The notes below the pieces were generated by a model. The model was not told the DNA's origin, ran no database searches, and saw only the letters and a program-made list of their open reading frames with translations. DNA of 64,000 nt from Gracilaria domingensis. Its lineage: Eukaryota; Rhodophyta; Florideophyceae; Gracilariales; Gracilariaceae. Both the position numbers and the translations under genes were made by a program. This document shows, piece after piece, positions 25,721-60,100 of the stretch (position 1 is its first letter; each line of letters opens with the position of its first letter). Location: assembly GCA_022539475.1 (NCBI GenBank), contig VCMS01000384.1, forward strand, positions 1 to 64,000, read 5' to 3'.

Positions 25721-25722
25721 TG

Positions 25723-25817
25723 GTGTGGAAGCGAAGGCCGGTAGAACCGAAGTGCTCGAGAGTAGTAGTGATGACGATTTGCCAATAATGAGGCTGCGAG
25801 CGCCTCGAAGTGGATGA
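25723..25817 (+). CDS. C-terminal end of an unknown protein (truncated by gap)
   Basis: Directly after the gap an open frame reads through an acidic, serine-rich tail (ESSSDDDLPIM) to a TGA at 25,817. Composition is coding-like, but with about 31 codons no family can be assigned. It could equally be non-coding. Confidence 0.3.
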
Positions 25818-38745: not shown

Positions 38746-38834
38746 AGACGACGCGCCCTGTCACCAATGACAGCCTCAGTAAAGGTCCAGCCGTTGAACG
38801 GAATGCCGTTGCGGAAGAAGGACTCCATCATGAA

Positions 38835-39233
38835 GTGTTGAATTGTGAGACCGACACTTCCGAACCGGTCTACCTATTTCAAAGTCAGAACTACAAAGTC
38901 CTGACAGCCCTATATCACAAGCCCCGCCTAACTCGGATTATTACAAGTGCCGTGGACACCGGAACATCTCGGAACTTGGTGCACACTCGTGCAATACCAC
39001 CTGGGTGGGAATCGAGACTGTTACCCATAACAGCCCCCCGTGTGTCGGATGCTTCCAACCGCTCGATGAATATCCTCGGCGTAATACCGTTGGATATCCA
39101 ACTCGGTAACTTGAAGGTCCGTATTCGGTTTCTTGTATCTTCCAATCTGTCTCTGGATTGTATCTTGGGCACGTCCTTTAAAGACCGTTACGTGAAGGCG
39201 ATCTACCCCGCGGAGCGGAAAATTTCATTCTAG
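38835..39233 (+). CDS. Gypsy aspartic protease
   Basis: A 132-residue open segment. The active-site motif is AVDTGTSRNLV (Asp codon 38,955-38,957). It is followed by the flap region and the second family signature, LDCILGTSF, near the C-terminus. Length and layout fit retropepsin-like proteases of gypsy elements, which act as dimers to process Gag-Pol. This is the only pol module here without an obvious lesion, though it is separated from RT by broken frames. Confidence 0.7.
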   Translation: MLNCETDTSEPVYLFQSQNYKVLTALYHKPRLTRIITSAVDTGTSRNLVHTRAIPPGWESRLLPITAPRVSDASNRSMNILGVIPLDIQLGNLKVRIRFLVSSNLSLDCILGTSFKDRYVKAIYPAERKISF

Positions 39234-39838
39234 AACTCACCACCCGTGGCTATTCTCGATGCCGGTAAAGGTTCTCGTGACGGGACATCCATCCCTGCCC
39301 GCATTCTGAGACATACGGTATCGCAGAAGCTCCGCGTGGCCCGCGCCATCACACTCCCTCCTATGTCCGAAATGGCAGTCTTGGTTCAAACCGGTACATA
39401 CAGAATGGCATACTTGCAAAACAAGATTGATACCGTTCGCCGGAACCTACAACTGCTGGCTAATGGTATAACGGAAGTCTTTCCGAAAAGGCCGTTCTAC
39501 GTATTGGTCGCCAACGTGAGTGAGCGACCCCCACATTTATCGAAAAACACCGTAGTCGGCGAAGCTCAACCAGCCCCAGCAGCTCTCTTGTCCGTCATTG
39601 ACTTGAACCCGCAGCAAGTCGACGAGGACGTCGATGACCCTAAGAAGGGGGTACAAAACACGAGAGTGAGTCACCGGAAATGGACTGGACATCGACAGTA
39701 CAAATCGGTGAAGAGTACGAGCCGCAACGGAATAAGATCATTCAGCTCCTTTCCGAGTACGCTGAGATGTAGGACGGACACTTAGGAACAATCTCGGCCG
39801 CAAAACATCGGATTGAACAGGATCCTGATGCACACCCA

Positions 39839-40390
39839 GTGCACCAAGCCCCCTGCCGATCCGGTCAGAAAGCCCGAGAATGGGAGAAGGAGCAGGTCAC
39901 AAAGATGTTGAGGGAAGGAGGAATTGAACCGTCGTCGGCGAAGTCGGCTAGTCCTGTGGTCATCGCCCTGAAAAAAGATGGCTCTTGGCGCTTCTGCATT
40001 GATTACAGAAAGCTTAACGCCGTTACAGTTCGTGACTCTTACCCGATACCACGAATGGATGAATGCATTGATTTCCTGGGAGAAGCAAGAGTGTTCTCTA
40101 CCCTTGACGCCAACTCTGGGTATTGGAAAGTGAAAACAGACAAGCCCGATAGAGATAAAACTACTTTCACCTCCCATGTGGGTCTCTACCGCTTTATTCG
40201 GATGCCATTTGGCTTAGAAAACGCCCTTGCAACGTTTTAAAGAGCTATAGATGTCATCCTGAATAAGGTTCGTTGGCAACGTGCTATAGTGTATCTCGAC
40301 GATGTCATAATCTACTCGAGCTCCGTAATGGATCACTATCGACACCTGGCTGAGATACTTGATCTACCGAGAAGCCGGAATAAAACTGAA
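39839..40390 (+). pseudogene. Gypsy reverse transcriptase with in-frame TAA
   Basis: RT blocks in order: KKDGSWRFCIDYRKLNAVT, SYPIPRMDECIDFL, VFSTLDANSGYWK, LYRFIRMPFGLENALATF, then IVYLDDVIIYSS. The catalytic YLDD is at 40,292-40,303. After ALATF the codon is TAA (40,238-40,240), where the family has Gln (ATFQRA). A CAA to TAA change would explain it. A frameshift follows near 40,350-40,370, moving into the connection/RNase H frame. Non-functional as it stands. Confidence 0.85.
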
Positions 40391-41090
40391 GTTGAAGAAG
40401 TGCTTCTTCTTCCAGTCAGCAGTTGATTATCTGGGACATGTGATACGACTCGGGAAGCTTCAGGTGGCGTCGAAGACTTGCGACGCTGTGACGAAAGCTA
40501 GACTGCGACGGACACAGACTGGGCTTTGGGCGTTGCTAGACCTCTGCAATGTCTACAGATGCTTCGTAACGAACTTTGCAAGGATCGCCCACCCTCTGAA
40601 CCGGAAGATTGAGAAGGACCCGCCTTTCGACCTCGAACTGTTCTCGGAAGAGGATATGGACGCTTTCGAAGAGCTGAAGAAGAGGCTCACCACCCCTCCA
40701 ATTTTGTCTCTACCGAAGCCCGGAAAGCCTTACATCTTGGAGACGAACGCGTGCGACTGTCAGATCGGATGTACTCTGCTTCAGCAGCAAGAAGATGAGA
40801 AATATTACCGCCCCGTCGAATATTGGAGCCGTTCGCTGACCGCCCCAGAGAGGAACTACTGTACCTCTGAACGGGAATTTCTTGCCATAGTATGGAGCAT
40901 GCTGCTCCTGAGGCCCTACCTGGAAGTCCAAAGTTTTTATTGTTCGGACAGATCACAACGCTTTGCGTTGGCTCCTCAATATAAGCGATGCTACGGGAAG
41001 GCTCGCAACATGGCGCCTACGCCTTGCCGAGTTCGACTTCGAGCTGCAATACCGACCCGGTATTAAGCATCTCCGTGCCGCTGCAGTTTT
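40359..41090 (+). pseudogene. Gypsy connection and RNase H domain, catalytic Asp replaced
   Basis: Starts with REAGIKLKLKKCFFF and VDYLGHVI, the usual sequence after RT, then FVTNFARIAHPLN and LPKPGKPYILETNACD. In RNase H the first catalytic residue is the Asp of the ETDAS motif; here it is Asn (AAC at 40,746-40,748). SEREFLAIVWSM, with the conserved Glu, is present. Near 40,940-41,000 the frame slips; the expected DHNALRWLL and WRLRLAEFDFELQYRPG segments are legible in other frames. Confidence 0.75.
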
Positions 41091-41463
41091 GCGGATGCCA
41101 ACTGACGGAGAAGACGAAATGGCTTTTAGAGGATGACATTTCGTGCCTACTTGTGAATGAGATAGATACCGACACAGAATACGCCGTCGCGGATGTACTT
41201 GTGAACAGAGAAATCATAGAGGACGCCTTGATTAACTGGCCTACGATCACCGAATACGGGAAGCCGCTACATGTATCCACAACCATCCCGGAACAAAAAC
41301 GGACGTAAGCCCGATAAAGGTTGCGGGGTTCCTTGCCGTTTAGGCCAAAGATCCCTTCTGCAAGGCGAAAGCCGAATCCGTCGGAGATCCTAAGTCCCAG
41401 TTCGATTACAATCGTTCCGGAATACTGTGCAGATTCTCGCCGATCGACGGAGCCGTACAGAGA

Positions 41464-42337
41464 GTGGTACCGGAGTTCCTACGGGAAAGAGTTCTCGAAC
41501 TGGCTCATTTCCAACGTTTGGCTGGACACCCAGGCGCGATCAAGATTTACTACACCTTGCGTCGGGATTTTTACTGGCCCTTCAAGTCACAGCATGTGGT
41601 TGAGACCGTTTCTCGGTGTGAACCCTGCCTGGCAGCCCGCGGAACCCACTTCAAGAACCAGAAGTACTTGAAGTTGTTCCCGGCAACGGGCCCTTTCGAG
41701 TTCGTGGCTATGGACATATTAGGTCCTTTTGCCGAAAACCGGACGCGGAAAGAAGTACATACTGGTGATAACGGACCGCTTCACAAACCTCACTAGAGCC
41801 ATACCGCTGTCGGACACAAAGGCGACTGATATCGCTCTCACCTTTCTCGAGAACTGGGTGTATCATTACGGCATTCCTACCTATCTTCTCAGCGATAACG
41901 GCCCACAGTTTGTTGCCAAGTATTTCGAATCGCTTGCCGCTGATCTCGGTATCACGCACGCCCTGAAGACTGCGTACCACGCGCAGACGAACGGACAAGC
42001 CAAAAGGTTTAATAAGGTTTTAGCAACCCCCTTGCGGCATTACGTATCTGAACACCAGAAGGACTGGGACAAGCTGGTCCAACCGCTGGTGTACGGATAC
42101 AACCCGCAAGTTTACCGTTCAACCGGATCCACACCCTTCTAACTCTCCCTCACGCGGCACCCTCCCGGGGTTGTGTTCGACGAACCCACGTCAGCCCTCC
42201 TGCAAACGGCATCTCTCCACCCGACAACGGCTGAGACCCGTCGCGTAACACAAGCCCGCATATCGGAACTACTCAAGCTAGCCCACCCCAGATTAGGCAA
42301 AGCGCAGGCCCTAAAAGAAATTATTTCAAAAATGTGA
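41464..42337 (+). pseudogene. Gypsy integrase with catalytic Glu replaced by Lys
   Basis: Two overlapping frames (41,464-41,796 and 41,729-42,142) make up the integrase. The HHCC finger is HFQRLAGHPG...CEPC. Core Asp 1 is in AMDILGPF (41,713-41,715) and Asp 2 in LLSDNGPQF (41,894-41,896). The third DDE residue should be the Glu of GQVERFN, but here GQAKRFN has Lys (AAA at 42,002-42,004). The conserved tail runs to STGSTPF, then TAA (42,140-42,142), then LSLTRHPPG in the same frame, so that stop is also internal. Frameshift, stop and lost Glu make it dead. Confidence 0.85.
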
Positions 42338-43403: not shown

Positions 43404-46400
43404 TTACGACGTTCTTCGCAGTGCATTGCTCTCTCCTCTAATGCCACGAAGAATGCGGTTGACCCCATCTGGCGATGGAGTGTCTGGTGCAAGGAGGTGA
43501 TCAATCCTCGCGCATTGGTCGATAAAATAGCAACGCTTCCTGCTTCTGGTACGACTGCTCAGACCCGATTCATTTCCAAGTATTGCTGACGACGGAATCT
43601 CATGTCCAACGACACTAATCAGACGCGAAATGATCGAGACGTCTTCAACAGTTCGAGAGGTGAACGCCTGCTCCACGTCGCAGTTCTTGTAAATTTGCCC
43701 TTGAGCTCCAGTTTCCAAACCTGAAACCCATTGCATTAAAACCACCTTGTATTCGGATTGCCAATGAGGCCACTGGTCTTTCAAGTCGTCTTGTAAAGTG
43801 AAGTCCATGAACGTATGCGAGCGACCGTAGTAGATCTCAACCATTAGACTGTTTTCTATCGGCATTTCACAGGCAACATAGAGCTTGCTCTTTCTCGTTT
43901 GGCTCGTAAACAGAGTGAGGATACCTTCAACAGCCCAGAAGCATTCTGCACAACGCCACCAGAATTGAATCGCAGTTTAGGATAGAATGTGCAGAACGAA
44001 AGTGTCTCAATAAGAAGGGATGATTCAGTAGCTGAGAGTCCTTCGTACTTTTGCCGAAGGTAACCGTGCAACAATCTCTTTAGCAATTGATTCTCCTCAG
44101 ACTCGTCAATGAATTCGTACTTATGTCCGGCACCTCGAAGCGCGTACCCATCTTCGCGTTCAAGTTCATCCCACTCAGGATCGTCTCCGGCAAATCCCAC
44201 TTTGCAATAGGACTTGAAACTCTCGTACGAGAGCGCTGACCGAAATAGAGACGATGACGCATGTGTCCGAGCATTGAACCTTCCAAGAATCCAACCAATG
44301 TAACGCTCCATCCAATACTGAGAGTACAGTACTGGTGGTCCATTTGTTCTAAAGCATTCCTTCAGATGTAGAACCAAGTGAATTACGTACTTGCACATGT
44401 TCACATGCTCAAGTTTGTGCTGAAAGTAATCACGCTCAAAATGCTCATAGAAATCTATGCAATGATTTCCAAGCTCGTTCAAATTGGTCTCCGTCAAAGA
44501 TCCACGCCAGCACAAGTCTACAATCTGAACCAGGAAGCTCCATCCGGATATGTACGGCTCATCAAGTATCCCATCCAGTACGATTGGACTGTAATATAGT
44601 ATGAATGCTTCAACATCTTTGGACTTCCATTCAGAAAATCGCGACATTGACCTTGGACAGGAACTCATCTGGCTCGGTATGCCGCTACCAAAGCTCTGCA
44701 GCTCACGGTCAATTCTCTGTATGTGTACTGCACTCAGGTGGTATGGCTGACTAAGACCATCGCACCATAAACGAATGAAGTCTTTCCCAATATTGTAAAA
44801 TAGGTGGATGACATCGATAGGGAAACAAGAGTAGGGCTCGAGATGTGATAGTGAGAAAAGAACTGAACCTTCAGAAATTCCTGACTCCTTTTCTAGTTCC
44901 ATTCTGTTGTTTCCTTGAACAAAATCCAGTTGTGATATAGTCTTCAAGGTATCACTTGTATCACGTATGGGAAGTGCCTTGATATCGAACATGTTGCACA
45001 GTGACCCGTTGTTCATCCTGAACATGCTTGGATAGTAGTAGTGTCGGTGAGTGGGTGACCACACTTCTTTTATCTGACAGTACCTACAAGGAGCTTTTCC
45101 ATTATGAACCTTCAACCCAGCGATCTTCTTCATTGCTGGGAGATCCCCGCCGCACAATAAGAGATGGACACGCACACGCCGTGAAGAACCATCAAAGAAC
45201 ATAAAGACGGTCCCTGAACCATCTTTGTTAATGGATTCAATTTCTCTTACAAGAGGATAGATGAAGGATTGTAAGTTCACTGGCTCGCTTGGACCAGGAA
45301 CAAATCCCATCGAAAGAACGTTCCTCACTGAAATGCGCTTGTGCGGAGGTAGGTTGCATAAGAGAATTGCAATGGGCCACACGTCGTAAGATCGCTTTCG
45401 AAAAGCTTGAAATCCATCACATGATAGCATGATGAACACGTCATTGCTCAACTCGGAGTGGCCCCCAAATCTGTCACATAACCGTTGATATACTTCTCCA
45501 TCAAAGAAGTCGCTGTATGTCCCAGTCGTGTAGTGATCCCTAGACTGTACGAAAACAACTCTTCGCCTATATCTTTGTCTAGGAATATATCACGGAACTT
45601 AGGTGCCAGCTTCATCTTGTAAAAAGATAGATCAGGACTTTGAACAGTCTCAAGAGAACGCAGCTTTCCACACACTGAGCATCCAGTGTGGTGTGGGTCA
45701 GAGAAACACATATGCCTCGGACATATGAAAAACTCCTCTACGGTTTCTTCTATTCCGGAGTCCTTCTGAAGTCTAGATAAAACTGTATTCCAACTACGAT
45801 AGGGTTCCCTGATCACCTGGAAAATGTCATTTATAACTGCTTGAGTTAATCCGTTCTTGAATTAGATCTCCACCCAATCCTTGTTTGCGTTCATCCAAAA
45901 ACAGAAGGCTTGAGACGGACCTGAGGTAGATTGGAGCACGCAAAATTGAGATTGAGAGCTCTGAATATCGTCCGTTTCCGCCTCAGTACACTCCTGGTGA
46001 CAACTAAGGGCGGATGCCTGTTCAAGGCTTTCGAGGGAAATACTCATTGGGTGAGAAAGCGTGGTTGTATGCGATGTAGTGGAGGGCCTTTGCGGTGACC
46101 CATTGAAAATGACATTGAATTCTACTTCTTCGTGCTCAGCCAAGGAGGAATTCGGCAGGTTCTGTGTCATCAAATCCTGACTGCCTTGGGGCTGGTCCAG
46201 AAAACTAATGCTATGTTCTGGACTTGAGGAGGGTGAATGGAAAGTTGTAACCGGCTCTGCATTTTCTGCGACAGCGGGAGATGTTGAGGAGGTCATCCCA
46301 GTTGCGAGAGATGGTAGCAGTGGCCCGGAGACGTCCTCAGTTTGTGCGGTATGGTCTTCAAGATGGGCGTCGTTAGCAGAATAGTTAAGAGATGATGCGT

Positions 46401-46669: not shown

Positions 46670-47389
46670 ATGTTTCCCGAACGATATCTTCCGGACGGTG
46701 CTCAATCTCTGTGTGTCATGGAGTTCGAGTCATCTGTCCAAGTCTGTCTTCAAGATTTCCTTCTTAGTAATGTGGAAATAGATGCACTCGTTACTGATCC
46801 AATTTCGTTTCAATCCCCTTCTCTTCGTGAAACGTTTTCATCTGGTTCAACCGATAGATCCCTCTTCCCTTCCCGGCCTTTGAATGCGATGGGTGTTCCG
46901 AACCGCCTCTCCATCATTCTCTGTAACTGATCAGCATCATCGCTTCTCGTCAGAACGTCCCCGAACAGTTCACCATCTCGCGCTAGAATTACACCGCTCA
47001 CGCCACTTGAAAGGCACTTGCAGAAGGCAAAAGATGATATTATTCAAGCATTCCGCGTTGAACTTGGAGTTCTGAGTCGTCGGCTTGAAAACTTGGAGAC
47101 ACCTTCAGCTTTTCCTCTTATTGCCAGCCCCGTCCAAGGAGTGGACTTTGCAAGAGAGCCAAATGTTACAGCTCCCATGCGCGCCGCCATAGAATCAAGG
47201 ACTGCTTCAATTCCAAAGGGTCAGGAACGGTACATTCAGTTTCCCGACGATGTTTCTGATAAGAAGCTGAATTCAGATGCAAAGGATGCGCTAGGAGTTC
47301 TCATGCTGCAACATATTGGTCCTGAATTTGGTAAGCTGAGCTGGTCGAAAGCTTCGAAGTCAACGCATATAGCAATTCAGTTCATTTAA
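46670..47389 (+). pseudogene. Divergent ORF next to CACTA transposase, coiled coil, one TGA
   Basis: From ATG 46,670 (MFPERYLPDG) one frame runs to 47,389 with a single TGA at 46,928-46,930. Sequence on both sides is coding-like and in the same frame. After the stop there is a coiled-coil-like stretch (LERHLQKAKDDIIQAF, then LGVLSRRLENLE). It starts only about 80 bp from the transposase N-terminus on the opposite strand, so the two would share a bidirectional promoter. It may be the element's accessory protein (a TnpA-like role is a guess) or a host gene. Confidence 0.45.
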
Positions 47390-47500
47390 AAGGTCATGTC
47401 TGTTCATAGAGGTTGAATTCACACCAGTGTGGATATCTTCCGGTATTTCCCTAGCCTCTTCGGCGACAGGCCCCGGTAATGCCGCAGCATTCGGTGTTAT

Positions 47501-48300
47501 TTAGTTATCGGAACTATCCCCATGTGCCATACCCTTAGACACGAGAGGCTGCAGGCGTTCTGTGTCCACCATTGGCACGGCTCCGAGCTCCAACTCCCGT
47601 GTCTGTCCTCCTCCCTGGCATCGTATATCAGATGAATTGGACCTCGTACGAGCTTCAACGGCCCCCGTTCTGGAAAGAGGGGAAGGTCGAGGAGTAACTC
47701 GCCTATCAGTCGTCTCTCGATTTCTTATTGTCTTTCTCCCTTGTCCGGACCCATTGCGAGGCATAATACGATTCATAGCGGCCCCAGTTCTAGAAGACAG
47801 GGAGGGACGTGACGAGCTTAATATATTAGGGTTCTCACGACTTCTCGTCATTGTCCCTTGTTGTCCAGATCCACTGGGCTGCGTAACCCGCGCCCCAGTA
47901 GCTCCGGTCTTCGATATCGGCCAGGGACGTGAAGGTCTTGGTGTCATACGAACCTCTTCATTTCCAGTTGTCATGCCCGCCTGTCCTCACCCGCTGGGCC
48001 CAGTTACCTCATCTTCTTGGGGAGTAGAGACACATGCACGATTTGCATTATCGGCAGTTGACGGCACGACATCGTTGGCTAATGCACGAATTATTGACGC
48101 AATCTCGGAAGACACTCCGCTGCGAGATGGGCGAGAGAGTACTGTAGAAGGACGCCCACTGACTCTCTCCTTCGTCGAGAACGACTTCCGTTTAGGAAGT
48201 TTGGTGCTTGTAGCCTGATTCGTATCATTCGATGTCTTCTCTTCTTCTGTCCACTCTTGTTCCGCTGCGTACTATTTCGCTTTCTCGGCGTAATACCCAT
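47501..48300 (-). pseudogene. Basic repeat protein with 40-residue tandem repeats, one TGA
   Basis: The minus-strand reading begins around 48,300 (MGITPRKRNS...). The better coding frame runs from about 48,270 through KLPKRKSFSTKERVSGRP and VTGPSG, then TGA (near 47,987), then GQAGMTTGNEE in the same frame to 47,501. Three 40-residue repeats follow, each with a PRPS..SRTGA-like start, a GSGQ core and a TRSRE-like end. The stop lies inside a partial fourth repeat, where the others have Ser. The product would be Arg/Ser/Thr-rich, probably disordered and nucleic-acid binding. It is on the same strand as the methyltransferase/SET block and 210 bp downstream of it. Confidence 0.5.
47661..48010 (-). 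repeat. Three 120-bp tandem repeats
   Basis: The GCCCC-GTTCTGGA-like unit start recurs at 47,661, 47,781 and 47,901, an exact 120-bp period. Each unit encodes 40 residues on the minus strand, so the frame is preserved. A partial unit follows around 48,000. Confidence 0.8.
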
Positions 48301-48510
48301 GTTGTGGAGATAAACGGGGTAATGAAACGAAATTGTTGGGAGGGTGGGGGGGGTGCATGGTTCAGATATTCCGGGAGACTCCGCAGTTCCTGCTTTTTAG
48401 GAATTTGACGTGCCCAATGGGTCGCAAATATCACCGTTACAAATAGATGAAGAGCTCCAGTGTACATGTACAACGCGTATTGCAGTCAGCTGCAACATTC
48501 ACAAGCATAT

Positions 48511-49377
48511 TTACTTTCTATTCGGTACTGCACTCATCGATTGCTCCAATGTCAGAGCCCAGTCCCAGGCGTACTGCTCTCCGTAGTTGAAATACAACTC
48601 TTCGCCCCTCTCAATATCTCTTACTGCTCTACAACGAAGTAGAGCATAGTTAGAAAGGTCGGAATTAAACTGTATCACGGACTTTGCTTCCACCATCTGC
48701 ACATTGGCACTTCGAGTCCTGTTCGACCGGGGCTGCGATAAATCGGGATCCCCGGCATGATATCCGCCGTCGTTAATGTAGCCCCCGATACAAAAAGGCG
48801 CCGGGACATTGTAGACTTCGCTCTCCTTCCTATCCTGAGCCTGTCCTGGTCTGTTCCTCAGGTGCAGAAACTCCGAACCAGGCACAGTGACCATCATAGA
48901 AAACAACTTGTACCGCACAGAAGTTGCTCCAAGACAGCCACTTCCATACGTTAGATGTCTTTCCTTCGGGCTGGTCAGATCCGCGTACACCAAAGATCCA
49001 TAAAAATGACAGATAGTTTCCCCAGCCAATATCTTATGTTCCGTGAACACCCCCATACCAGCACGGGGATGTCGAATCTTAGAAGATGCTACATGTAAGC
49101 GATAGCTATTGGCTCCAACAGTCAACAGCATATGCATATCCATTAGATTCAGAGCTCCTCGGTACTTCTCGTCCCAAAGATCTACAGTATGCAGTCCACA
49201 CTTGTCGACAATCTCCCAGTCCTTCCAGTATCTTCCTAGGAACTGAGTAATATGTGCAGGCATCACTTGGTACTGGGGGTATCCAAATAGAGCCTCCCAT
49301 TCATGCCGACCTCGGTCCCGATGTGGAACCCGGTCATAAGTCGTTAAAGCAGCATCCACCACCTCCTGTTCAACCAC
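48511..49377 (-). CDS. SET-domain protein, putative lysine methyltransferase
   Basis: 288 codons are shown here, but there is no ATG near this 5' edge and the frame is open into the upstream gene, so it is probably the C-terminal part of a larger protein. The SET domain spans about residues 98-268. RHPRAGMGVFTEHKILAGETI is the SET-N block, and YGSLVYAD follows. A central insert ends with CIGGYINDGGY. Then come ANVQMVE, the SET-C block LLRCRAVRDIERGEELYFNYG and the closing Tyr-rich segment. The family transfers methyl from SAM to protein lysines, often histones. The Cys-rich post-SET zinc cluster of classical histone enzymes is not evident. Confidence 0.8.
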   Translation of the reverse strand: MVEQEVVDAALTTYDRVPHRDRGRHEWEALFGYPQYQVMPAHITQFLGRYWKDWEIVDKCGLHTVDLWDEKYRGALNLMDMHMLLTVGANSYRLHVASSKIRHPRAGMGVFTEHKILAGETICHFYGSLVYADLTSPKERHLTYGSGCLGATSVRYKLFSMMVTVPGSEFLHLRNRPGQAQDRKESEVYNVPAPFCIGGYINDGGYHAGDPDLSQPRSNRTRSANVQMVEAKSVIQFNSDLSNYALLRCRAVRDIERGEELYFNYGEQYAWDWALTLEQSMSAVPNRK

Positions 49378-49381
49378 GATG

Positions 49382-50443
49382 TCATTCTTCCCCCCCGCGA
49401 AGAACGTCGGCCATAAGAGTCGTTACATGGTGCTTCGCATGGCTGAAACATGGCCTATTCTTCTCGCACCGCAAGAACTTCCTATGCTTTGTCATCGATA
49501 GGCACGCCATACCCGTAGAACACGTTCCCACGAATATTTCCATGACAAGATCACCCGGTCTTGTGAAGCGACATATCAACTCCTTCATCACCTCCCTGGA
49601 CTTCTGCTCCGGTCTTATGTACTGCCCACCTGGTACTGAGCTACCTGGCTCATGTACCTTCCATGTCAACCACTCCCCCGCCCTCGGTTTCGGCACCCGG
49701 TCAATTACATTCCTGTTAGCCGGGAAAGTAGAAGGAATGAAATTGTTCTCCTCAAATGGAGTAAGACTGGCTTCCTCGGATGTTCGCAATCCACGCTTGA
49801 CCCCATGAACGGCGTACTCCGTTACGGGCTGTATCCCAAACTTCCGTGGATTCCCGCCAACATTACTTCGATCCCGGATGAACACCAGTGGATTCCCATC
49901 CACTTTAAACGAAGCCATGAGTTGTGGCTTACCTTCGCCTGCAGCGTCATCTTTCGTACTCGCGGTTTCCGAGAGTATCCCGTGCCAAACATGAAACTGT
50001 GCCATGGCACAGAATATAATGAAGTGCCCACCTGACCGAAGCGCGGAACTTATTAAGTCTGCCGTACTGATCATGTCATCCTCACTGAAGACATCGTGAG
50101 CACTATTCCGTTTGCTCCTCTTCCTTCGAGTGTTAAAGGGAGGGTCTGTTAGGAGAAGCTGTGCCTCACCCCATAAAATCTCACTCTGATTCACAAACGT
50201 TTCATGTGTGTGCCTCAGGTCCTTCATGTCACAGTTGTACGCTACAAAGTGTGACTTTCTCATCCCCTTCCACACCTTGTCCATATTCATTCGAAGAAGA
50301 CTGTATATCTCCTTCATGGGCGGCTCAATACCTGTCTTTTGAATGTTGTACCCGGCAACCCGAGATTCATGCTCCCAAAATTCATGCTCCGCACGATTCA
50401 CCGGCTTCTCGAAGTCGTCGCTATCGGAGCTCACGAGGTCCAT
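49382..50443 (-). CDS. Beta-class DNA amino-methyltransferase (N6-adenine or N4-cytosine)
   Basis: A 353-codon intact frame from ATG 50,443. The catalytic motif IV is LLLTDPPFN (DPPF at residues 100-103). About 200 residues later come a motif X-like RPEQKSREVMKELI and motif I, GDLVMEIFVGTCSTG (residues 297-311), followed by FLRCEKN, the acidic SAM-binding strand. The order IV ... X-I defines beta-class amino-methyltransferases (DNA methylase N6_N4_Mtase type), as in bacterial restriction and cell-cycle enzymes. It differs from eukaryotic MT-A70 proteins, which use DPPW. Cytosine-N4 versus adenine-N6 cannot be told. Preceded in frame by ORF A (one TGA) and followed by the SET frame after a G7 tract. 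Confidence 0.8.
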   Translation of the reverse strand: MDLVSSDSDDFEKPVNRAEHEFWEHESRVAGYNIQKTGIEPPMKEIYSLLRMNMDKVWKGMRKSHFVAYNCDMKDLRHTHETFVNQSEILWGEAQLLLTDPPFNTRRKRSKRNSAHDVFSEDDMISTADLISSALRSGGHFIIFCAMAQFHVWHGILSETASTKDDAAGEGKPQLMASFKVDGNPLVFIRDRSNVGGNPRKFGIQPVTEYAVHGVKRGLRTSEEASLTPFEENNFIPSTFPANRNVIDRVPKPRAGEWLTWKVHEPGSSVPGGQYIRPEQKSREVMKELICRFTRPGDLVMEIFVGTCSTGMACLSMTKHRKFLRCEKNRPCFSHAKHHVTTLMADVLRGGEE

Positions 50444-50449
50444 ATGCTC

Positions 50450-51691
50450 TCAGCGAGGTGGAGGTGCAGCAGACTTGGTCGAAGAAGGTCCGGCATTACC
50501 GGAAGATTTAGGAGTTTTCGTCAGTTCAATATCGGGTTTCGCGTGAATGGCCACATTGAACCCTGCCGCATGACGCATATCCTGTATCGGTTTCCATAGC
50601 AACTCCGAAAATTTCTGAAATCGTGCAGGCAACTTACCGGAGTCAGAACCAGATACGGTATCCATCCGTATCTCCGAAAACTCTATCCAGTTCCTCATCT
50701 GATCAACCCGTAAGCTATAGACGCTATCGTGGGTGCATATGGTTTCGAGGTCTGTCAAATATTCCTTAGCCAGTATTCGGAGGTTTGTACTGCATTCATT
50801 ACTCAAGGTCTCCACGGATCCACTAGTACTGCTCTGTGGCACATCCTGTGTGTTGAATCGATTACTCTGGCTTAGCGGGGCATAACCAGACTCCCGTGTC
50901 TCTAGCGCTGTATACTTCAACGTTTGCATATTCATGTAAATGTATGGTTTCACCATCTGCTGAACGTTCGTGTATCCAAGATGAGCCGCAAAACAACTCC
51001 ATGCCCATACGACCTCACTGATAGCGAATCCCAGTCGATCGCAGTTGTCTTTGGAGAACGACGTAAAAGTGGGTATGTACACAGACGGTGCATGGTTCAC
51101 TTTTCGTTTCTTTTTCGGTTGTTTCTTCTTCATCATTCTGATGTTGTTGTTCTCTCCCATTATGTGGCCGAGGTATGATAAGTATATAACGACCTCAAAT
51201 GGGTCCACAGCTGTTGGTGGGATGAACTCTGTCGTCTTCAGAACCTGCTTTCTCCTGGTCATGAAATAACCAAACAGGCATCGCACCGGTAGGTATATAA
51301 CCATATCCAGAGAGAGAAGGAAATAATCGCAGAGTCTCTGGTCCTCATCCCCGTCCTTCTTGTCAAGAAGCTTCGTTACAAGATATCGTTGCTCCACAGG
51401 TTTGTTATTCACAACACTCTTTCGCAGCTGTTGCAGTGTCAAGTTCTGCAGATTCTTGGAGTTAGTGGCCTCCTCAAACATCTTCCTTGCCTCCGGAATA
51501 TCCTTATAGTTCTCGGTGCAGAACTCTATTAGCCCTCTAAACCCCACGTCCCGTGGCCGATCAGGGCCTCCATTGCTGTTTGCCAAAGCATCGCGAAGAA
51601 CCAAGAAAAGTCTGACATATGCATGGAACGCCGGAGAGGGAGCACTCATGTCGATAGGATGTATCTCCTCTCCATCATCAGTGGAATCCAT
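50450..51691 (-). CDS. Unknown 413-residue protein with SV40-type NLS, upstream of methyltransferase
   Basis: An intact frame from ATG 51,691 (MDSTDDGEEIHPID). The only motif I recognise is PKKKRKV at residues 192-198, identical to the classical monopartite nuclear localisation signal and set in a Lys-rich stretch. The surrounding parts look mostly helical, with hydrophobic segments (FLLSLDMVIYLPVRCLFGYF; EVVIYLSYLGHIM). The C-terminus is Ser/Pro-rich (SSGNAGPSSTKSAAPPPR) like a linker. The TGA stop is followed, in the same frame, by GAG-CAT and the methyltransferase ATG. A TTTAAA lies about 30 bp upstream of the start. Confidence 0.65.
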   Translation of the reverse strand: MDSTDDGEEIHPIDMSAPSPAFHAYVRLFLVLRDALANSNGGPDRPRDVGFRGLIEFCTENYKDIPEARKMFEEATNSKNLQNLTLQQLRKSVVNNKPVEQRYLVTKLLDKKDGDEDQRLCDYFLLSLDMVIYLPVRCLFGYFMTRRKQVLKTTEFIPPTAVDPFEVVIYLSYLGHIMGENNNIRMMKKKQPKKKRKVNHAPSVYIPTFTSFSKDNCDRLGFAISEVVWAWSCFAAHLGYTNVQQMVKPYIYMNMQTLKYTALETRESGYAPLSQSNRFNTQDVPQSSTSGSVETLSNECSTNLRILAKEYLTDLETICTHDSVYSLRVDQMRNWIEFSEIRMDTVSGSDSGKLPARFQKFSELLWKPIQDMRHAAGFNVAIHAKPDIELTKTPKSSGNAGPSSTKSAAPPPR

Positions 51692-51980
51692 CGCTTCAGC
51701 GCAAACAACGGAGGCGAGCCTTTAAATGGCGACTTACGCTGGACACCCCCGCTTTCGGCAGCTCCTCCCAGCGCACTGCCATTCTCGTCCGTGTCCGTGT
51801 CCGCCCCCTTCTGAGGTCGGTGTCCGTGCCGCTTTGAGTGGGTGCGATAACGTCGCGTGTAGGCCACGTCGCGATTCGGAGCTATTGCAAAGGTCGCGTA
51901 TTGTGCTAATAGTCGCGGACCAAGTGCGTGTGAAGCGCTAGTTTTCTCTAGTTTGATATATGTGCACGGCGTGTGCAGGG

Positions 51981-53481
51981 AAATCACTGTCGGAAGTGCT
52001 GGGAGGATTGTTCTGGGAGGTCTCCGAAGAGTGCCAGTATGTGGCCAGAACGTGCCCGCGGGCGGGGGTGGGAGTCGGTCGTGTTAGAGTAGGTACCCTA
52101 ACACGACCGAAACTCCCCGCCCGCGGGCACGTTTTGGGCGATTTTTTGAAAAATGTGCGATTTTATGCCCGCGGGCGTGGGGCTCCGATCGTTTTAGGGT
52201 ACCTACCCTAACACGACCGACCTCCCCCGCCCGCGGGCACGTTCTGGCCACATTCTGGCGCCTTCCCGGGACCTCCCAAAACACACCCCCCGGCACTTCC
52301 TGTACCCACTGCGTCACCTCAGTGCGCCATCCCGTTTTCTCCACCCTCCAGAAACTCCCTAATTTCCACGCGCACCACACCTACCCTAGAGAAGAAAATG
52401 GTGTCGAGTGTCAATTATGTGGGGGACTCTATGCATTCTGCGCCGTGTTCGACGACGGCGGCTGATATACTGGATGCACCGCCGATGGCCCGGCGGCCGC
52501 ACCTGGCGCAGCAGTACTTAAGAGCGCCATCGATAGCAGCCTTTTGTAGTCTAGTGGTAAGCTATGAAACAACTTATAACTTTCAGTAAACTAATCTTTA
52601 CGCCAGTCATCGACTGTACACGACGTAATTCCATCCCGGAGCCGTGAGTTCGTTACGCGCATGCGGCCCATCGGAGGGCCGCTGCTGTGCTCGCCAGCGA
52701 CCGCGCGCAACAACAGTCTCACTGCGTAATCACGAAACCGACCGCTGCTGACACCAGGGTGTGAAGGGCGTTGCGATCGTGCTTCACACACTTCCGTAAG
52801 TTCTCTCCCTCTCCTCTTACCACCTTTGTGCTACAAACACAAAGTGTCACAGTTCGTAGCCTCTATCGCAGCCTCGCCTGCTCCCGGAGATTCTGTGGTG
52901 GGACACTTCCGTCGCGCGCTCGCCGTTCAAGTGCCATGTTGCACAACTGCAACTGCCTGGTGCATATACTGCTGCAGCGTGTAGAACAGGTGGGAACCAC
53001 TCAATAGTACAGATTCAGTCACTGATTCAGTGAGCTGTAGCACCTCGGAAGGGAGATCGTGATCGCAGAGAGGGTAGGTGTGGTGCGCGTGGGAATTAGG
53101 GAGCGTTTGAAGGATGGAGAAGACGCGTTGGTGCATTGAGGTGACGCGGTGGGTGCCGGAAGTGCCGGGAGGAGGGTTTTGGGAGGTCTTCGGAGGGTGC
53201 CAGAATGTGCCCAAAACGTGCCCGCGGGCGAGGAGGGCGGGGGTCGGTCGTGTTAGGGTAGTGACCCTAACTCGACCGGCCTCCTCGCCCGCTGGCATAA
53301 AATCGCACATTTTTCAAAAAATCGCCCAAACCGTGCCCACGGGCGGGAGGGGGGTCCGGTCGTGTTAGGGTAGGTACCTTAACACGACCGACCACCCCCA
53401 CCCCCCCACCCGCGGGCACGTTCTGGTCACATTCTGGCGCCTTCCCGGAACCTCCCAAAACACGCCCCCCCGCAGTGATTT
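51981..53481. mobile_element. 1.5-kb foldback element with ~406-bp inverted repeats
   Basis: The left repeat 51,981-52,386 begins AAATCACTG and ends CACCACACCTACCC. The right repeat 53,072-53,481 begins GGGTAGGTGTGGTG and ends CAGTGATTT. Each is the reverse complement of the other with minor differences, and about 685 bp lie between them. Each repeat also contains two smaller palindromes (52,052-52,130 and 52,166-52,240; 53,218-53,296 and 53,333-53,419) built of GCCCGCGGGC and GTGTTAGGGTA..TACCCTAACAC arms. The structure is that of a foldback or non-autonomous DNA transposon. It begins 290 bp upstream of the ORF A start, so it may instead be the terminal structure of a larger unit. Confidence 0.8.
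52398..52560 (+). CDS. Possible first exon inside the foldback element
   Basis: An ATG at 52,398 just inside the left inverted repeat opens a frame (MVSSVNYVGDSMHSAPC) that reaches CTAGTG followed by GTAAGC, a good 5' splice donor. Beyond it the frame stops at 52,589. No downstream exon is recognised, so this could be chance. Confidence 0.15.
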
Positions 53482-54182
53482 CGCTACACTCGGCCGCCCG
53501 TACGTTAGCGCCGCTGTCCACGTGTATTAGTGGGAGTAGGCTGTACATGAATGTGAATAAGTGTACTCCTGACTACTATGCAAAGCATTTGAAGAGCACG
53601 ATTAGAGAGCGCGCCCTAGGAGAATTTAAAGTGTACTAATAACGTACTATATTGCTACAAATTTGCTACTGAAACACGAATGGCGTACAGGTGGACAACG
53701 TGGAGCACCAAGTCACTTGTGAATGCCCGCACAAATGGCGTACTGTAAAACGTAGTACGCCAAGAGTATGTCAATGGCTCGCCACAGCCGTGTACGCCAT
53801 TTGTAGATGTGCTCAAAAGCGCAACTAAACCGATACCAACGAAATGGCGCTACCGTACTGCAACTAAAGTGAAAAGTCGTCTCAGAAAGACCTTCGGTAC
53901 ATTCGTACCTTCGGTACACTTCGTAAATAACAAGAAGGCCAATTTTCAAAGTTAGAAAGTCTCTCGTATGCGCCACCGCCGCCGCGATTCATGTGTTAGT
54001 TTGAGAGACAGCGCCGATCAGCGCTTTCTCTCTCTAAGTAGCACAATTTCTACTCGCCAAACAGCGCCTCCGCATATATCCGACCTACATCCTTTGTACG
54101 GGTGGGTCCAGACGACAACCTCCAGAAAGCCTGTTAGTCCAAAAGCTATAGCCCCCCTCCCTCCACTTCCTTCAGGTCGCCC
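53482..54182. other. Intergenic, no recognised gene
   Basis: AT-richer sequence between the foldback element and the GH36 remnant. GTACGCCAT-like motifs recur around 53,670-53,870 in both orientations, which may be a minor repeat. No coding content is seen. Confidence 0.4.
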
Positions 54183-55150
54183 TCAGTTACGCACCGTTGG
54201 CACCGCGAAATCCACCCTATTGCCCTTGTCCTTGACCGCAACCAAATCGAAGAGAACGGAATCCGCGTCGAACATAAACTTCACAGCCAACCCCGCATCC
54301 CCCGGCGTCTTACCAGTAAGCGTCAGCACCTCCTTAAAGTGATGATATACACCACCCGACGCCATCAATAGCGCCCGTATCATTATTGCTCATCAACATA
54401 CCAGGACACAGCTCCTCCATCTCACAACTAAATCCGGTATCAACCCCCTCAACTTCATTCGCTGCAACAACTGCCCCACAATACGCCGCACGTTGATTGC
54501 CATCGCTAGAGCTCGTCGCCTATGACGTGACGCGAACATCCAGGCCGCCGAATCCGATTTGAACGGTGACTACAACCGGTGCATAGCCTTCTCATAAAAC
54601 AGTGGCGCCAGCCGTTTGCGCAGGTCCATGCCACCCTTCACCTCGTTCACCTCTTCCGCCGTGAAAGTGCGCGGGTCAAGCTTGTATCCAAACGTTCCAG
54701 ACATGGCCATCACAGCCTTTGTCTTCATCGGCGTCGAGCGAAGCGTCTGATGGTTCGGTACCACTAAAATATGAGCCCCCATCGTCGAACAGGGGCATAC
54801 CAAAGATGTTCCGTACTGAATCGACGTATGCGACTGCGCGTCCGTGTTATCAGACGTCCAAATTTGTGGCGAGAAGTACAGCAACCCGGCGTCGAACCAA
54901 CTCCCACCACCAGAACAACTTTCGAACAGCACCTTCGGGAACGCCTCAGTCAGTCGTCCAAACAACCCGTACACACCCAAGATGAATCGATGCCCAATCT
55001 CCCCCTGCCTTTCCTTGTGCCAGTCTTGAGAGGACATCTTCGTCAAATGTCGGTTCATATCCCACTTGATGTACTCAATGTTCGCCGTACTCAGCATCTC
55101 GTACAGTTGCTCGTGTATACGAACACCCGTCTGAGCAGCGGTAGGAGTTT
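54183..55150 (-). pseudogene. GH36 alpha-galactosidase fragment, stops and frameshifts
   Basis: The readable body shows GH36 blocks in order. IEYIKWDMNRHL contains the catalytic nucleophile Asp, and ESCSGGGSWFDAGLL follows. IWTSDNTDAQ contains the acid/base Asp. IQYGTSL, MGAHILVVPNHQT and GTFGYKLDP complete the catalytic part. The frame meets TAG at 54,570-54,572 right after MHRL, but SPFKSDSAAWMFASRH and LRGLIPDL continue the family pattern in the same frame. Two frameshifts near 54,380-54,420 lead to EELCPGML and DADSVLFDLVAVK of the C-terminal beta-sandwich. The N-terminal domain and first barrel strands are missing because the sequence joins SCC2 near 55,150-55,210. GH36 enzymes hydrolyse alpha-galactosides. 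Confidence 0.8.
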
Positions 55151-55184
55151 CAGCCTCCAAGCAAAGTTCTTCAGCTTTCTGCAA

Positions 55185-56760
55185 GGTCCCATGAGAATGG
55201 ATCGGATTATCGATATCGCTCGTTCTCTTACAAAGGTCGCGGTATCACACAAGCGCTTCTCCACCACGGACAAGATCTTGGACATAAGGACAGGATCACG
55301 TTTCTCACCATCCTTCAAACCCTCAATGCCGACCGATTGTTCTGGACCACTATGCTGTAGCAACGAGCGGCCAATAAGGTCAAAAGCGGCATCTCGTGCC
55401 AAAGTCCATACATCGCGGCAACTAGCCTCAATATAACTAAAAACATTTAGCAAGTGACATAAAAGACCTCGACAAGCATTATCGATGGAAGAAAGAGCTT
55501 TGATAGACTTCACGCGAACGGTAGGTGCGCTGTAATGAAGACCATCTAGTATAGATTGTAGTATTGTGCCAAAGCCTGAAGTGAAACTTCTGTTCTTGCC
55601 AATGAAGCATGCTGCTCTTAACGCATCGCTGCAAGTTATCTCTTCATTTCTCATGCGGCAAGCTGCTACGTGTTCGGCTCGCCTTCTTGAAATCTCTTCC
55701 AATGCCGTCATTGCGCTGTTTTCGACATCTGCGCATCCATCCTGGCCATCGATAACTTCCTCGTCATCCTGAGGATCGCCCATATTTCGTTCCTGGTTCA
55801 TAATCTGGGCCCGTCTTTTTTGTTTCTTGGCAACCTGGTGGTCATCAACGAGGAAAAAGCCGTCATAAAAGGAATTGGCAGCAGCTACTTGAAGAGATGG
55901 CTTGGGATCGAGGAAAAGTAACAATGTCTCTCTCTCCTTCTCAAGAACTTCCACTTTGATGTCAAAAGATACGGACTGTTCGATCTCTTTCAATACATCG
56001 ATGTCATACAGATCTCAAATCCTTGAAGCAAGAGAGCCCAACACATCAAAGAACATGCACTTGGTATGCACCGTTTTGTCTTCAGGAGACCGAGGTCGAG
56101 TGATGACGGCGACAGACAATGTCTGCAAACTCAGCTCCATAGATGGCCATTCTGGCCGTCCACAAAAGACAAGCAAATCCTCAAGAAGACTAGAGAACGC
56201 CGTTCTATACTCATGGTCACGATCCGAGCACGCTCGAACCAAAAGTGGGTCGAGAACGTGTACAGACGCTTTCAACGCACGACCGTGCCTTGCCTTTCTC
56301 ACCGACACCAGGTCATTCTGAGCAGATGATGTTGTACGTGACTTCGAACGGACCGGGAGGTTTCGAACAGGATCACTGCTTGCAATACAAACAAACCGCG
56401 CGAAGAGAGCCGATGACGCTCTTACAGTAGTCTGGTCTTCTGCGAGTTTGAAGAATCGTAAATTCCTTCTCGCAGCAGGAACAGAACTCGCTGCCTCCCT
56501 GACACCGTCAAGGATTTGAACACGGTGGTCTGGATACGACGAGAAAATCATACATACAGTCTTGATCGCGTGAGATTGAAACCACTCAACGCCTGTCACA
56601 GAGGGAGAGTGGTCGCACACCCTCGCTAGTCGAGATGCAACAGAATGGGGAAGAAATTGCTCCTTGCTGTGAAGGGTACTGAGAGCATCAAGTAGAACAA
56701 AAACTTGATCGAAAAGCGCCTCGTCACGCTTGAGTATCGTCCTTTTTGACCCCTCGCTTC
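55185..56760 (-). pseudogene. SCC2: SCC2/NIPBL cohesin-loader fragment, interrupted
   Basis: The homology is to the HEAT-repeat region of SCC2 (Nipped-B), which loads cohesin on DNA together with SCC4. Upstream is a frame with LKRDEALFDQVFVLLDAL. The next block, SHAIKTVCMIFSSYPDHRVQIL, matches the family's KYPxHR/IL element. VLGSLASRI is followed by TGA (56,015-56,017), and DLYDIDVLKEIEQS continues in the same frame. Then come VRVKSIKALSSIDNACRGLL, ARDAAFDLIGRSLLQ and DTATFVRERAISIIRSIL, the most conserved family repeats. Only about 520 residues of a protein that normally exceeds 1,500 are present. Downstream it changes into GH36 sequence. Confidence 0.7.
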
Positions 56761-57125
56761 AACAGCGGCAGCAGCAGAACCCACAACTCTTTCAATTCCC
56801 GTATTTGGGATTAGGGCGACGCAATGCACTCGGCTTGAACAGAAGGGGCATATGCGGCTGGTGCTCACCCGAGGTCCCAAGCACTGCATCTATCGACAAG
56901 CTACATCGCATGTATGTAAACGCGAATGCAACAAACTTGCTGCGTTCTAAGCTTACCTAGAGTCAAAGGGGCAGCGTCTAAGCGAACGGCATGCGTTGAG
57001 TTATTGATTGTCGATGGACAGTCAGTCACCAGGTAGAAATATAAACACAGATTAGCCAATCCTTGTCTTAACTGAGCTCTACTTCTCAGCATCGAGTTAT
57101 GCTTGTACCACAACTGACACAATCA
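56761..57125 (-). other. Possible further SCC2 coding, unclear
   Basis: One frame is open from about 56,950 to about 56,790 (including SKFVAFAFTYMRCSLSIDAV), and another covers 56,889-56,626. They may be decayed SCC2 or an upstream exon: GGGTGAGCACC looks like a 5' splice donor. I cannot align them to the family with confidence. The ECM29 stop codon lies at 57,126. Confidence 0.3.
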
Positions 57126-60100
57126 TCACGAAACCCCAAACACTGTACACAGTCTTATAGCGACAGATCGCACACCAGGTTCGGAATCTTCGCTCCGAGA
57201 CCTCTTGATCGCTGCCAATGTGTCTTCTCCAATCATATCTTTCATTGTCGCAGAATCTGAGATAACTTTCGCCAGGTGATCAAGAATTGCTAACCCGCTC
57301 TTTCTTAGCATGTTGTACTTGGGTTCGTGAACGCCGTTTTTGCTGAGGATTACTAATCGTTTCGTCAATGCCTCCCGTCGTTCCATGGAGTCTCCAAATT
57401 GCAGTTCATTTGTTGAGAAGCGTTCGGACAACCTCTCAGCCGCTTGCAGTACAACTAGTCGGACGTCCCAATCGTTCTGCATCAGTTCCTCAAACACACA
57501 GAGAAGATCTTGTATGTGTTCTATTTGCTTCTCCATTCCCGCTCTCCCGTTGACTGCAGATTGCAGACATTGGATCGCCGCTTTGCAATGCAGCCTCTGC
57601 GCCTTTCGCGCCTTATTGCGAGGATCAACAGCATCCGCATCAGACCCAGTTACCCACGCCATACGCGATACGTTTGGTACGCTGGCATTCACATCGGACG
57701 AGCTTGGTGACACCATTTCTGACAAATGGTGTTTGACTTCCTCGTACATGCACACGGTTTCCCGAGTGTTCACCAGCACTTTACCCGCTGCATCAATGGC
57801 TGCAATGCGATAGTTCTTCTTCCCTCGATGGGATTCGGAGAGCAGAGCCTGCACGACAGTTGTGCCCCCTCCGCACGCCTCCCACAGAGATGCACTCAAG
57901 CAAGAATCTGCCAGAGACCCAATGGCTTCAATGGGAACATGTTGTCCTTCCCAAATATGACCCGGAAGCACCATCAACAACGCTTGGCGCTTCGAGACAT
58001 GAACTGCACATCCACTGTGTCATTCGACGCGTTGGCCAGGTCCCCTAGCGTGGCTGCAGCGCTTCTCTTTACGCGGTACTAAGCAGAAGTAGATAGACGT
58101 TGCTCACATATTTCAACAATCTCCCTTTCGTACAAACGATGCCCGGCCTGAGTAATCGGCGCCCCTTCATCCCAGATATCTTTCCAGTTCTTGCTGGCAT
58201 CTCCTGCATCATCGTCTGTTTCACGTCGTCCCATGTATGCCAGATGCAGTATTGAGCTGGCGTGCTGCTGAGCAGTATCGGGAGCCATTCGCCACAACCC
58301 AGCAGCCAGTGATGAGGCAAGCGAACGATCCCGAGGGTCTTCCGATGTGCCCTTCTTGCTAATTTGTTGGCAGTACTTTCCAACTTCATCGACGCGGCAC
58401 AACTTAGATGCTCTACCAGCAGCGTTGCACCATGCCTTTCGAAGCATAGCATTTCGCTCCATACCAGCAGCGTTTGCCGCCGGAAACAGAAGCTTTGAAG
58501 CGTACGGTTCCATGACCACCGCTCTGGATTGGAGAACGCTCGAAATCAACCTCGCTGTCGCTGCGCGTGTCGGAAATCCCACTCCTATGCGAGCTAGTCG
58601 GGCAAGATTGGAAACCACCTCGGCGGCGATTGTCTCATCAACTTGCCCTCCCAACTTTTCAAGTGATTCGATCAAAGAGGACGATTACATACTTGCCGCA
58701 GTGACCCGAGCGTTCTACAGTTCCTCCGGTGATGCCACATGATACTCCGCGTAGTTCAAGATTTGCGGCTCCAGCTCCGTCGCTATTTCCAACAAATTCG
58801 CAATCAAATCCGGCAGAGACGACCGCAGTGCCGTTCCTCCATGCCTTATGATCTCAGACAGAGTCTTGGACACAAGTGCTCTCTCCTCCTCTGCGCTGTG
58901 TGTGATAGACGTCATTAGCACTGACAGCACAACGCCAACAGCTTGAGCCGAGTTTTCCTCACCAACATACCCTGGATTACATAGATGTATAGAGAGTGTC
59001 GAGAGTGCTCTTCCAGTCCCCTGAGCGCTCTTGCGCACACTTTCCTTGATGTCATCCATAGCCCTCAGCCTGTGGTACCAGAAATCCTTCAACGAGTCTT
59101 TCACTTCCTCCCATGTGCGAGACGTAAGCACGTCCCGAAGCGCTGCGCACCCCGCTTCTCGTGAACGTCATTGCCTCGAAACGATTGACTTGATGCAATG
59201 CTCAGTTACCGCCGGCAAGTTTGCCTTTATAGCTTCTGCCACTGAGCCGTGACCAGACTCTTTGACAACGGCCGATATAATGGAACCCATAGCAATGCGG
59301 ACGCTCTCAGTTGGATCATGGCAATACACATACAACCGTGGCAAAAGGTTCTTCACGTGCGGCCGAAGATGTTCGGCCGCGATTTCATTATTCAACAGCG
59401 CACTACCAGCCAATGCGGCGCCCTTGCGACTGTTCCAAAGCGCGGCATGGCCGGCAAGATCCATGAACTTATACACAAGTTCGGGTTGACCCATGTCCTG
59501 AGCAAGACTGCAGAGCTCTTTATACGTCCCAGACGGCGCGCCAGCCGACTTTGATTGAACGTCCACGCCGCTGAATTCCAGCAATACGCCTTGATCGCCC
59601 GGGACCGTCGCAGCAGCTCGCTTGCCTGCCGTCAAAGATCGGACAAGGTTTCCAACAAGAACTTGTTGATCCTTTGGGGGGCATATGTTGTACACCAACG
59701 CAATGCCGTAAGAGGCCATCTGTTGCGTGAAGTCGGATCGATCTGACAAGAACACAGTAAACGCCTTTTGTACATCTGGCAGAAGATCCAGAAGCAACTG
59801 TTGCTCCTGAGTGATTCGCGCTTCGTCCGCGGTGGTTGCGAATGTGTACTTCTCACTCTCTGATCTGTCCGCGAACAACTTGATAAACGTTAACAGACAT
59901 ACAAATCCACCTGGTCGTGCGTTTGGCCTTTCGTCAAAGACCAGCGACATGATCGTTTTGACTGTCTCAGGCAACAAAGAAACCTTGCTCTGGTCAGCAT
60001 CGTCGTAGATCCTCTCTCGCACACCGTAGCTGTGCTCCCTGAGTTCTGTTATACTCTGCAACTCGCTCGAATCTGCTGTCCCGCTAGATTTGGACACATC

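Follow-up and report, generated by a model that had tools for sequence, protein, structure and literature searches.

The stretch analysed here, called the window below, comprises the first 64,000 nucleotides (nt) of contig VCMS01000384.1 of the red alga Gracilaria domingensis (assembly GCA_022539475.1), and its subject is a gene combining a DNA methyltransferase (MTase) with a SET domain. On the minus strand of the window three adjacent frames are separated by gaps of 6 nt and then 4 nt, and both their coordinates and their close packing had been given correctly in a preliminary description made from the letters alone. The first frame in the direction of reading (50450..51691, 413 amino acids, aa) contains a basic run, KKKQPKKKRK, resembling a nuclear localisation signal (NLS), and matched no Pfam family. 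The middle frame (49382..50443, 353 aa) matched PF01555 (N6_N4_Mtase) with an E-value of 1.7e-10 and 41.7 bits (cut-off 26.7), and the third one (48511..49377, 288 aa when read from GTG) matched PF00856 (SET) with an E-value of 1.7e-7 and 32.0 bits (cut-off 22.4); both domains proposed in that description were thus above the Pfam cut-offs. Its assignment of the MTase to the beta class is likewise borne out, as DPPF (motif IV) lies N-terminal to the motif-I-like FVGTCSTG, i.e., in the permuted order. The three parts reappear in unchanged order throughout the genome, and their association is therefore more than chance.

The genome was searched with each part, the window's own place being included, and only the best-scored places were considered, so that the counts are lower bounds. 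At least 115 places were scored for the MTase (of 569 candidates), at least 135 for SET (of 588), and at least 101, with at least 102 matches, for the N-terminal part (of 685); outside the window these are 79-93%, 78-92% and 83-94% identical to the window's parts, respectively. At one of these loci, L018, the N-terminal domain, the MTase and SET form a single 1045-aa frame beginning with ATG, in which both Pfam domains exceed their cut-offs (56.9 bits for PF01555). A stop-to-stop frame of 1055 aa without an internal stop is present at 9 of the at least 115 MTase places, the longer frames of the search list being disregarded because several loci contain runs of N. Linkage is widespread also among the other copies: the MTase follows the N-terminal part within 1.5 kb downstream at 65 of 101 places, lying 9 nt away and in frame in 56 of these 65 pairs, and SET follows the MTase within 1.5 kb at 75 of 115 places, with in-frame spacings of 12 nt in 41 cases and 9 nt in 16. 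Neither an indel nor a stop relative to L018 was found at 4 of the 29 non-window MTase-side loci compared (L018 itself being counted), and since these 29 are the best-scoring ones, intact copies are possibly over-represented among them; the numerous small indels seen at L017, L020 and L030, which are truncated, are alignment noise. The DNA amino-methyltransferase and the SET domain belong together, as one polypeptide in the complete copies. The junction of the two asserted in the preliminary description is accordingly retained as linkage and even strengthened to a single protein, but the three frames are not separate genes, a possibility ruled out by the complete copies with a single frame. 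As a separate observation, two N-terminal-MTase-SET units with 85-88% identity to the window's parts lie back to back about 13.5 kb apart at C100:272773-292610.

The MTase family is chiefly prokaryotic, and bacterial contamination joined to the scaffold, which had been named earlier as a finding that would refute the proposal, would explain such an enzyme. The copy number and genomic context rule it out, leaving it a negligible probability: the parts occupy more than 100 places in the genome, SET is fused to the MTase, one MTase place lies on a contig of 1,013,300 bp (C22), and the products of a partner gene described below are deposited as G. domingensis proteins.

The window copy itself is a decayed, cut-down relic of this dispersed gene. 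In comparison with the 1045-aa frame of L018, its first two frames are separated by an in-register stop at codon 414, and one extra nucleotide is inserted at codon 761, ahead of SET. Together these two lesions divide the gene into three frames and leave SET out of frame with the MTase; a 15-nt in-frame insertion is present at codon 434. Motif I is altered as well, reading EIFVGTCSTG in the window as against DMFAGTFSTG in 28 of 30 copies, and the window form occurs in none of the other 29. Moreover, both ends are lost, and the truncated element copy spans 47371..53616 on the minus strand. Position 47371 is reached by 13 of 14 non-window SET-side loci and similarity to the window stops there in all 13, while at 53616 similarity stops in 12 loci; beyond the two breakpoints the other copies run on with outward sequence common among themselves. 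The description of the block as almost free of lesions consequently has to be abandoned. The suggestion of its recent arrival also finds no support, because the window copy is more diverged than most of the copies measured: its synonymous divergence (dS) from L018 is 0.089-0.093 across the three parts, and among nine other copies, with values of 0 to 0.115, only one exceeds it (L035, in the MTase).

The repeat that carries the gene is dispersed and has one precise terminus, read on the tail side. Downstream of SET follows a basic and coiled-coil open reading frame, designated ORFx, which gave no match in Pfam, PHROG, PADLOC or among solved structures. Only the start of the ORFx region is present in the window (47371..48220, minus strand), where it ends abruptly at 47371; the segment 47371-48629 aligns at 93% with L070:1-1261, which contains the start of the same region. 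Behind ORFx other copies possess a tail with a sharp end. Among the best 28 of 1026 candidates scored for the tail terminus, all except the query's own place, hence 27, stop within 8 bases of one point, and the nine flanks that were read are all different. The distance from the MTase start to the terminus is 9.53-9.55 kb in four copies (C38, C49, C296 and C359), and some copies have lost internal sequence that lies between the SET region and the tail in others. The frames tested in the last 4.6 kb of the tail, read in L072, contained no known family, and four telomere-type strings sought in the element loci were not found. The terminus pattern is not present in the window, as expected for a truncated copy. 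At L070:1922 the copy on C465 is interrupted by another repeat, of which 15 further copies begin within a few bases.

On the opposite side, upstream of the N-terminal part, four 30-bp palindromes with at most two mismatches are located in the window, and none appeared in 100 shuffles. The first, GTCGTGTTAGGGTANNTACCCTAACACGAC (52078..52107), and the last (53359..53388) have one mismatch each, and the two between them (52188..52217 and 53247..53276) have two. The same interval was inspected at twelve places (L055, L057-L064 and L066-L068; L069 repeats the place of L062), of which eleven contain exact palindromes and one, L060, an inexact palindrome.

Past the palindrome interval, a second gene reads in the direction opposite to that of the fused gene. 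Between the best 66 places of this partner (of 826 candidates) and the 101 N-terminal places, 30 divergent pairs were found, with the starts 0.4-1.9 kb apart, and no place scored had the two parts in the same orientation less than 6 kb from each other. The partner is a 677-aa frame, its deposited relatives being 1097 and 1170 aa long, and it bears two short motifs reminiscent of the ParB/sulfiredoxin fold group. When aligned by hhalign with a ParB_N profile derived from 22 bacterial domains, it gave an E-value of 0.0077 and a score of 24.1 over columns 5-73, colinear across both motifs, which exceeded the scores of all 40 shuffled sequences (top 21.0). Two proteins of the partner gene, P0008 and P0009, are deposited for G. 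domingensis under unrelated names (an LPXTG protein 'SasA' and a mediator subunit 15-like protein), which suggests that such repeat genes get annotated as unrelated proteins.

The catalytic motifs of the fused enzyme are intact in most copies compared. TDPPF (motif IV) is retained in 30 of 30 copies and FAGTFSTG in 29, the window being the sole exception; the SET motifs GMGVF, YIND[AG] and F[DN]YGEQY are found in 29, 27 and 28 of the 30, respectively. Five of the nine non-window copies measured differ from L018 by a dS of 0.04 or more (L011, L033, L034, L035 and L037, of which L033 and L034 have identical MTase and SET values). In these five, the ratio of nonsynonymous to synonymous divergence (dN/dS) relative to L018 is 0.18-0.24 in the MTase, 0.20-0.52 in SET and 0.39-0.57 in the N-terminal part; the window copy yields 0.39, 0.49 and 0.33 for the three parts. 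Judging by these ratios, the substitution pattern indicates purifying selection. The relatives of the MTase with solved structures, DpnA, CcrM and MboIIA, are all adenine enzymes, and the enzyme is DpnA/CcrM-like and may be adenine-N6- rather than cytosine-N4-specific, a leaning suggested by DPPF/DPPY and by these adenine-type structural relatives; the permuted N6_N4 domain is described in the cited passages as having evolved either base specificity repeatedly (PMC8885841). The nearest profiles of the MTase are those of phage and restriction-modification enzymes; phage matches came from 66 records, all below 60% identity, and the 15 rows listed have 25-26%, in the MTase part only. Among solved structures SET is related to KMT5A and more weakly to EZH2, KMT5A being the best match with a 4-sequence profile. 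By profile it belongs to the same family as the SET domains of KMT5A/SETD8, EZH2 and MLL, and the sequence similarity to them is weak.

A protein search with the 1045-aa frame retrieved two proteins, P0004 and P0005. P0004 (1015 aa) is 41% identical over 97% and has the same architecture, with the MTase and SET both above cut-off (68.6 bits for PF01555). It is unlikely to originate from this assembly, because none of the 150 scored places pairs its PF01555 score with an unbroken frame of its length. L001 represents a second subfamily in the genome and is nearer to P0004 than L018 is (54% vs 42%), so the family is older than its recent bursts. P0005 (1278 aa) shows 24% identity over 43% and retains SET. 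The MTase alone gave only two remote matches in the protein search, and a scan of bacterial genomes gave one 50-residue MTase match and nothing else. The large size of the element might point to a piece of an integrated viral genome, as might the phage and plasmid proteins in which a ParB-like domain accompanies an adenine methylase (PMC5512222, in the part cited). This origin is nevertheless very improbable, as scans of IMG/VR contigs gave no relative apart from one 65-residue MTase match, and Pfam identified no capsid or polymerase family among the frames chosen for it.

The surroundings of the element copy in the window contain further frames of note. A Transposase_21-type frame (PF02992, E-value 2e-14) lies at 43859-45589 on the minus strand and has 76 other matches in the genome. 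It was considered as the transposase of the element and set aside: its matches, at 25-84% identity, are far more varied than the MTase copies, and their linkage was not computed. An arrangement as a 26-kb palindromic element with MTase and SET on the ParB side too was also withdrawn, as the linkage on C465 spans a 663-nt run of N and was seen at one of 66 ParB-like places. At 25722..25814 (plus strand), on the right edge of a run of N at 24855-25720, there is a separate C-terminal fragment of the ParB-like partner protein, 97% identical to P0009 over 31 residues; the frame on the left edge of the same run is presumably phosphatase-like. The broken-up frames at 36300-41800 (plus strand) resemble those of a Ty3-type retrotransposon (gag/protease/reverse transcriptase-like), and the long frames, of up to 1045 aa, at 55000-62300 (minus strand) resemble a host protein of the HEAT-repeat kind, for example GCN1.

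Taken together, these data make it very probable that the window holds the decayed and truncated remains of one copy of a large mobile element dispersed through the genome, and that the main gene of this element unites an N-terminal part with an NLS-like run, a beta-class MTase and SET, its divergent and weakly ParB/sulfiredoxin-like partner being separated from it by palindromes. As for how the element would work, we propose that its palindromes may be bound by the ParB-like partner or by the N-terminal part of the fused protein, and that the fused enzyme would jointly mark DNA and lysines in the chromatin of the element itself. Such marks could determine how the element is expressed or how visible it is to the host, or they could tag new copies during transposition; silencing, protection or licensing of the element are all conceivable outcomes. 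To this explanation as a whole, its proposed working included, we assign a probability of roughly 0.6. Marking of the element's own chromatin, taken by itself, is a tentative idea to which we give somewhat less than even odds; it is the simplest reading because of the NLS-like run, the presence of both writers in one protein, the linked and possibly DNA-binding partner and the element's own palindromes. Its main rival, which we regard as unlikely, is that the writer targets the host or competing elements and not its own DNA, either in counter-silencing or by defending the cell from DNA viruses and other elements. Transposon-encoded methylases have been speculated, in the cited passages, to defend against DNA viruses (Morozov et al., 2019; PMC6338049), and an enzyme closest by profile to phage and restriction-modification MTases agrees with such a role; action close to the element would, however, be no less in keeping with the NLS-like run and with palindromes linked to the gene.

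A number of observations weigh against the explanation preferred here. The spacing between the MTase and SET is 11 nt, out of frame, in 8 of the 75 linked pairs, and 11 of the 29 loci share the deletion of one nucleotide at codon 760, between the MTase and SET; copies with the two domains in different frames have spread. (Programmed frameshifting between the MTase and SET was considered and set aside: the shared deletion sits at a run of G, but a single inherited indel explains it equally well.) In place of NHS, the usual SET motif, the present domain has ND, and P0005 is missing the DPPY motif. Among the 66 ParB-like places, 36 have no divergent N-terminal match within 6 kb, and 27 have neither a divergent N-terminal nor an MTase match within this distance, which may be caused by the restriction of the lists to the best-scored places. 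Moreover, the partner frame and its deposited relatives gave no Pfam or NCBIfam match of note, the middle part of the partner matched no solved structure, HMMER gave an E-value of 0.11 for the partner with the ParB_N profile, the N-terminus of P0005 did not score above shuffles with this profile, and P0005 and P0008 have no significant similarity to each other; the ParB assignment of the partner is therefore weak, and we treat it as suggestive. Finally, the frames submitted to Pfam, which extend as far as the ParB-like gene on that side, contained nothing recognisable as a transposase, a recombinase or a reverse transcriptase. The earlier proposal of a mobile element thus stands with regard to the dispersed repeat, its one precise terminus and the nine flanks, but without a recognised mobility gene in the frames tested.

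The spread of split-frame copies and the lack of a recognised mobility gene would also be compatible with a passenger gene family in an element that is mobile without it, or with a subtelomeric or segmental repeat, in keeping with the position of some places at contig ends (e.g., C105:21, C96:257 and C239:38). Assemblies are, however, also expected to break at long repeats, which would leave copies at contig ends, and the precise terminus with nine unrelated flanks, as well as the fused architecture retained in P0004, a protein from another source, argue against a passenger or subtelomeric origin, which we consider quite unlikely.

DNA methyltransferases borne by transposons are already known, and the Gracilaria element stands apart from these by its fused SET domain, its partner gene and its palindromes. 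In the passages cited, Dam-like enzymes are reported for DIRS elements and C5 DNA methyltransferases for retrotransposons of dinoflagellates and charophytes (de Mendoza, 2018; PMC5890265), and methylase-encoding retrotransposons are said to exist in Rhodophyta (PMC6338049). The element resembles these as a mobile element bearing a DNA methyltransferase and differs from them in that its enzyme is of the PF01555 and not the Dam or C5 type and is fused to SET; within the coverage given above, its frames contained no recombinase or reverse transcriptase that would place it among DIRS elements. A second parallel is N4CMT of bdelloid rotifers, according to the cited part of the source a captured bacterial enzyme with the permuted N6_N4 domain, joined to a chromodomain, encoded by a host gene and stated there to be without eukaryotic homologues (Rodriguez, 2022; PMC8885841). 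Both are bacterial-type enzymes joined to a chromatin domain in a eukaryote; whereas the chromodomain of N4CMT reads histones, the Gracilaria fusion is repeat-borne and its SET domain would write on them, and no chromodomain was matched in L018, P0004 or the window frames. ParB-methylase proteins are known in bacteria, and the ParB domain of one of them was shown to nick DNA (PMC5512222, in the part cited). Bce_0392 of Bacillus cereus and the polyvalent proteins of phages likewise combine a ParB-like domain with an adenine methylase; Bce_0392 is a fusion, whereas in Gracilaria the ParB-like similarity is weak and belongs to a separate divergent gene, and SET is added. In the literature searched, covered for several topics by top-ranked titles and the beginnings of abstracts, no report of a methyltransferase-SET fusion on a transposon was found.

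It is conceivable, though we regard it as doubtful, that the element represents a new class of large eukaryotic mobile elements without a known transposase or reverse transcriptase, in which a ParB/sulfiredoxin-like protein that binds a palindrome array, or nicks it as the nuclease of transposition, would be combined with a single enzyme writing both a DNA mark of prokaryotic type and a lysine mark. With more than 100 places per part and complete frames, the family is directly testable. Should the enzyme be active, the marking of DNA and of histones would be coupled in one protein encoded by a selfish gene, and the family would offer a natural test of whether one enzyme can set both marks and of why transposons carry methyltransferases.

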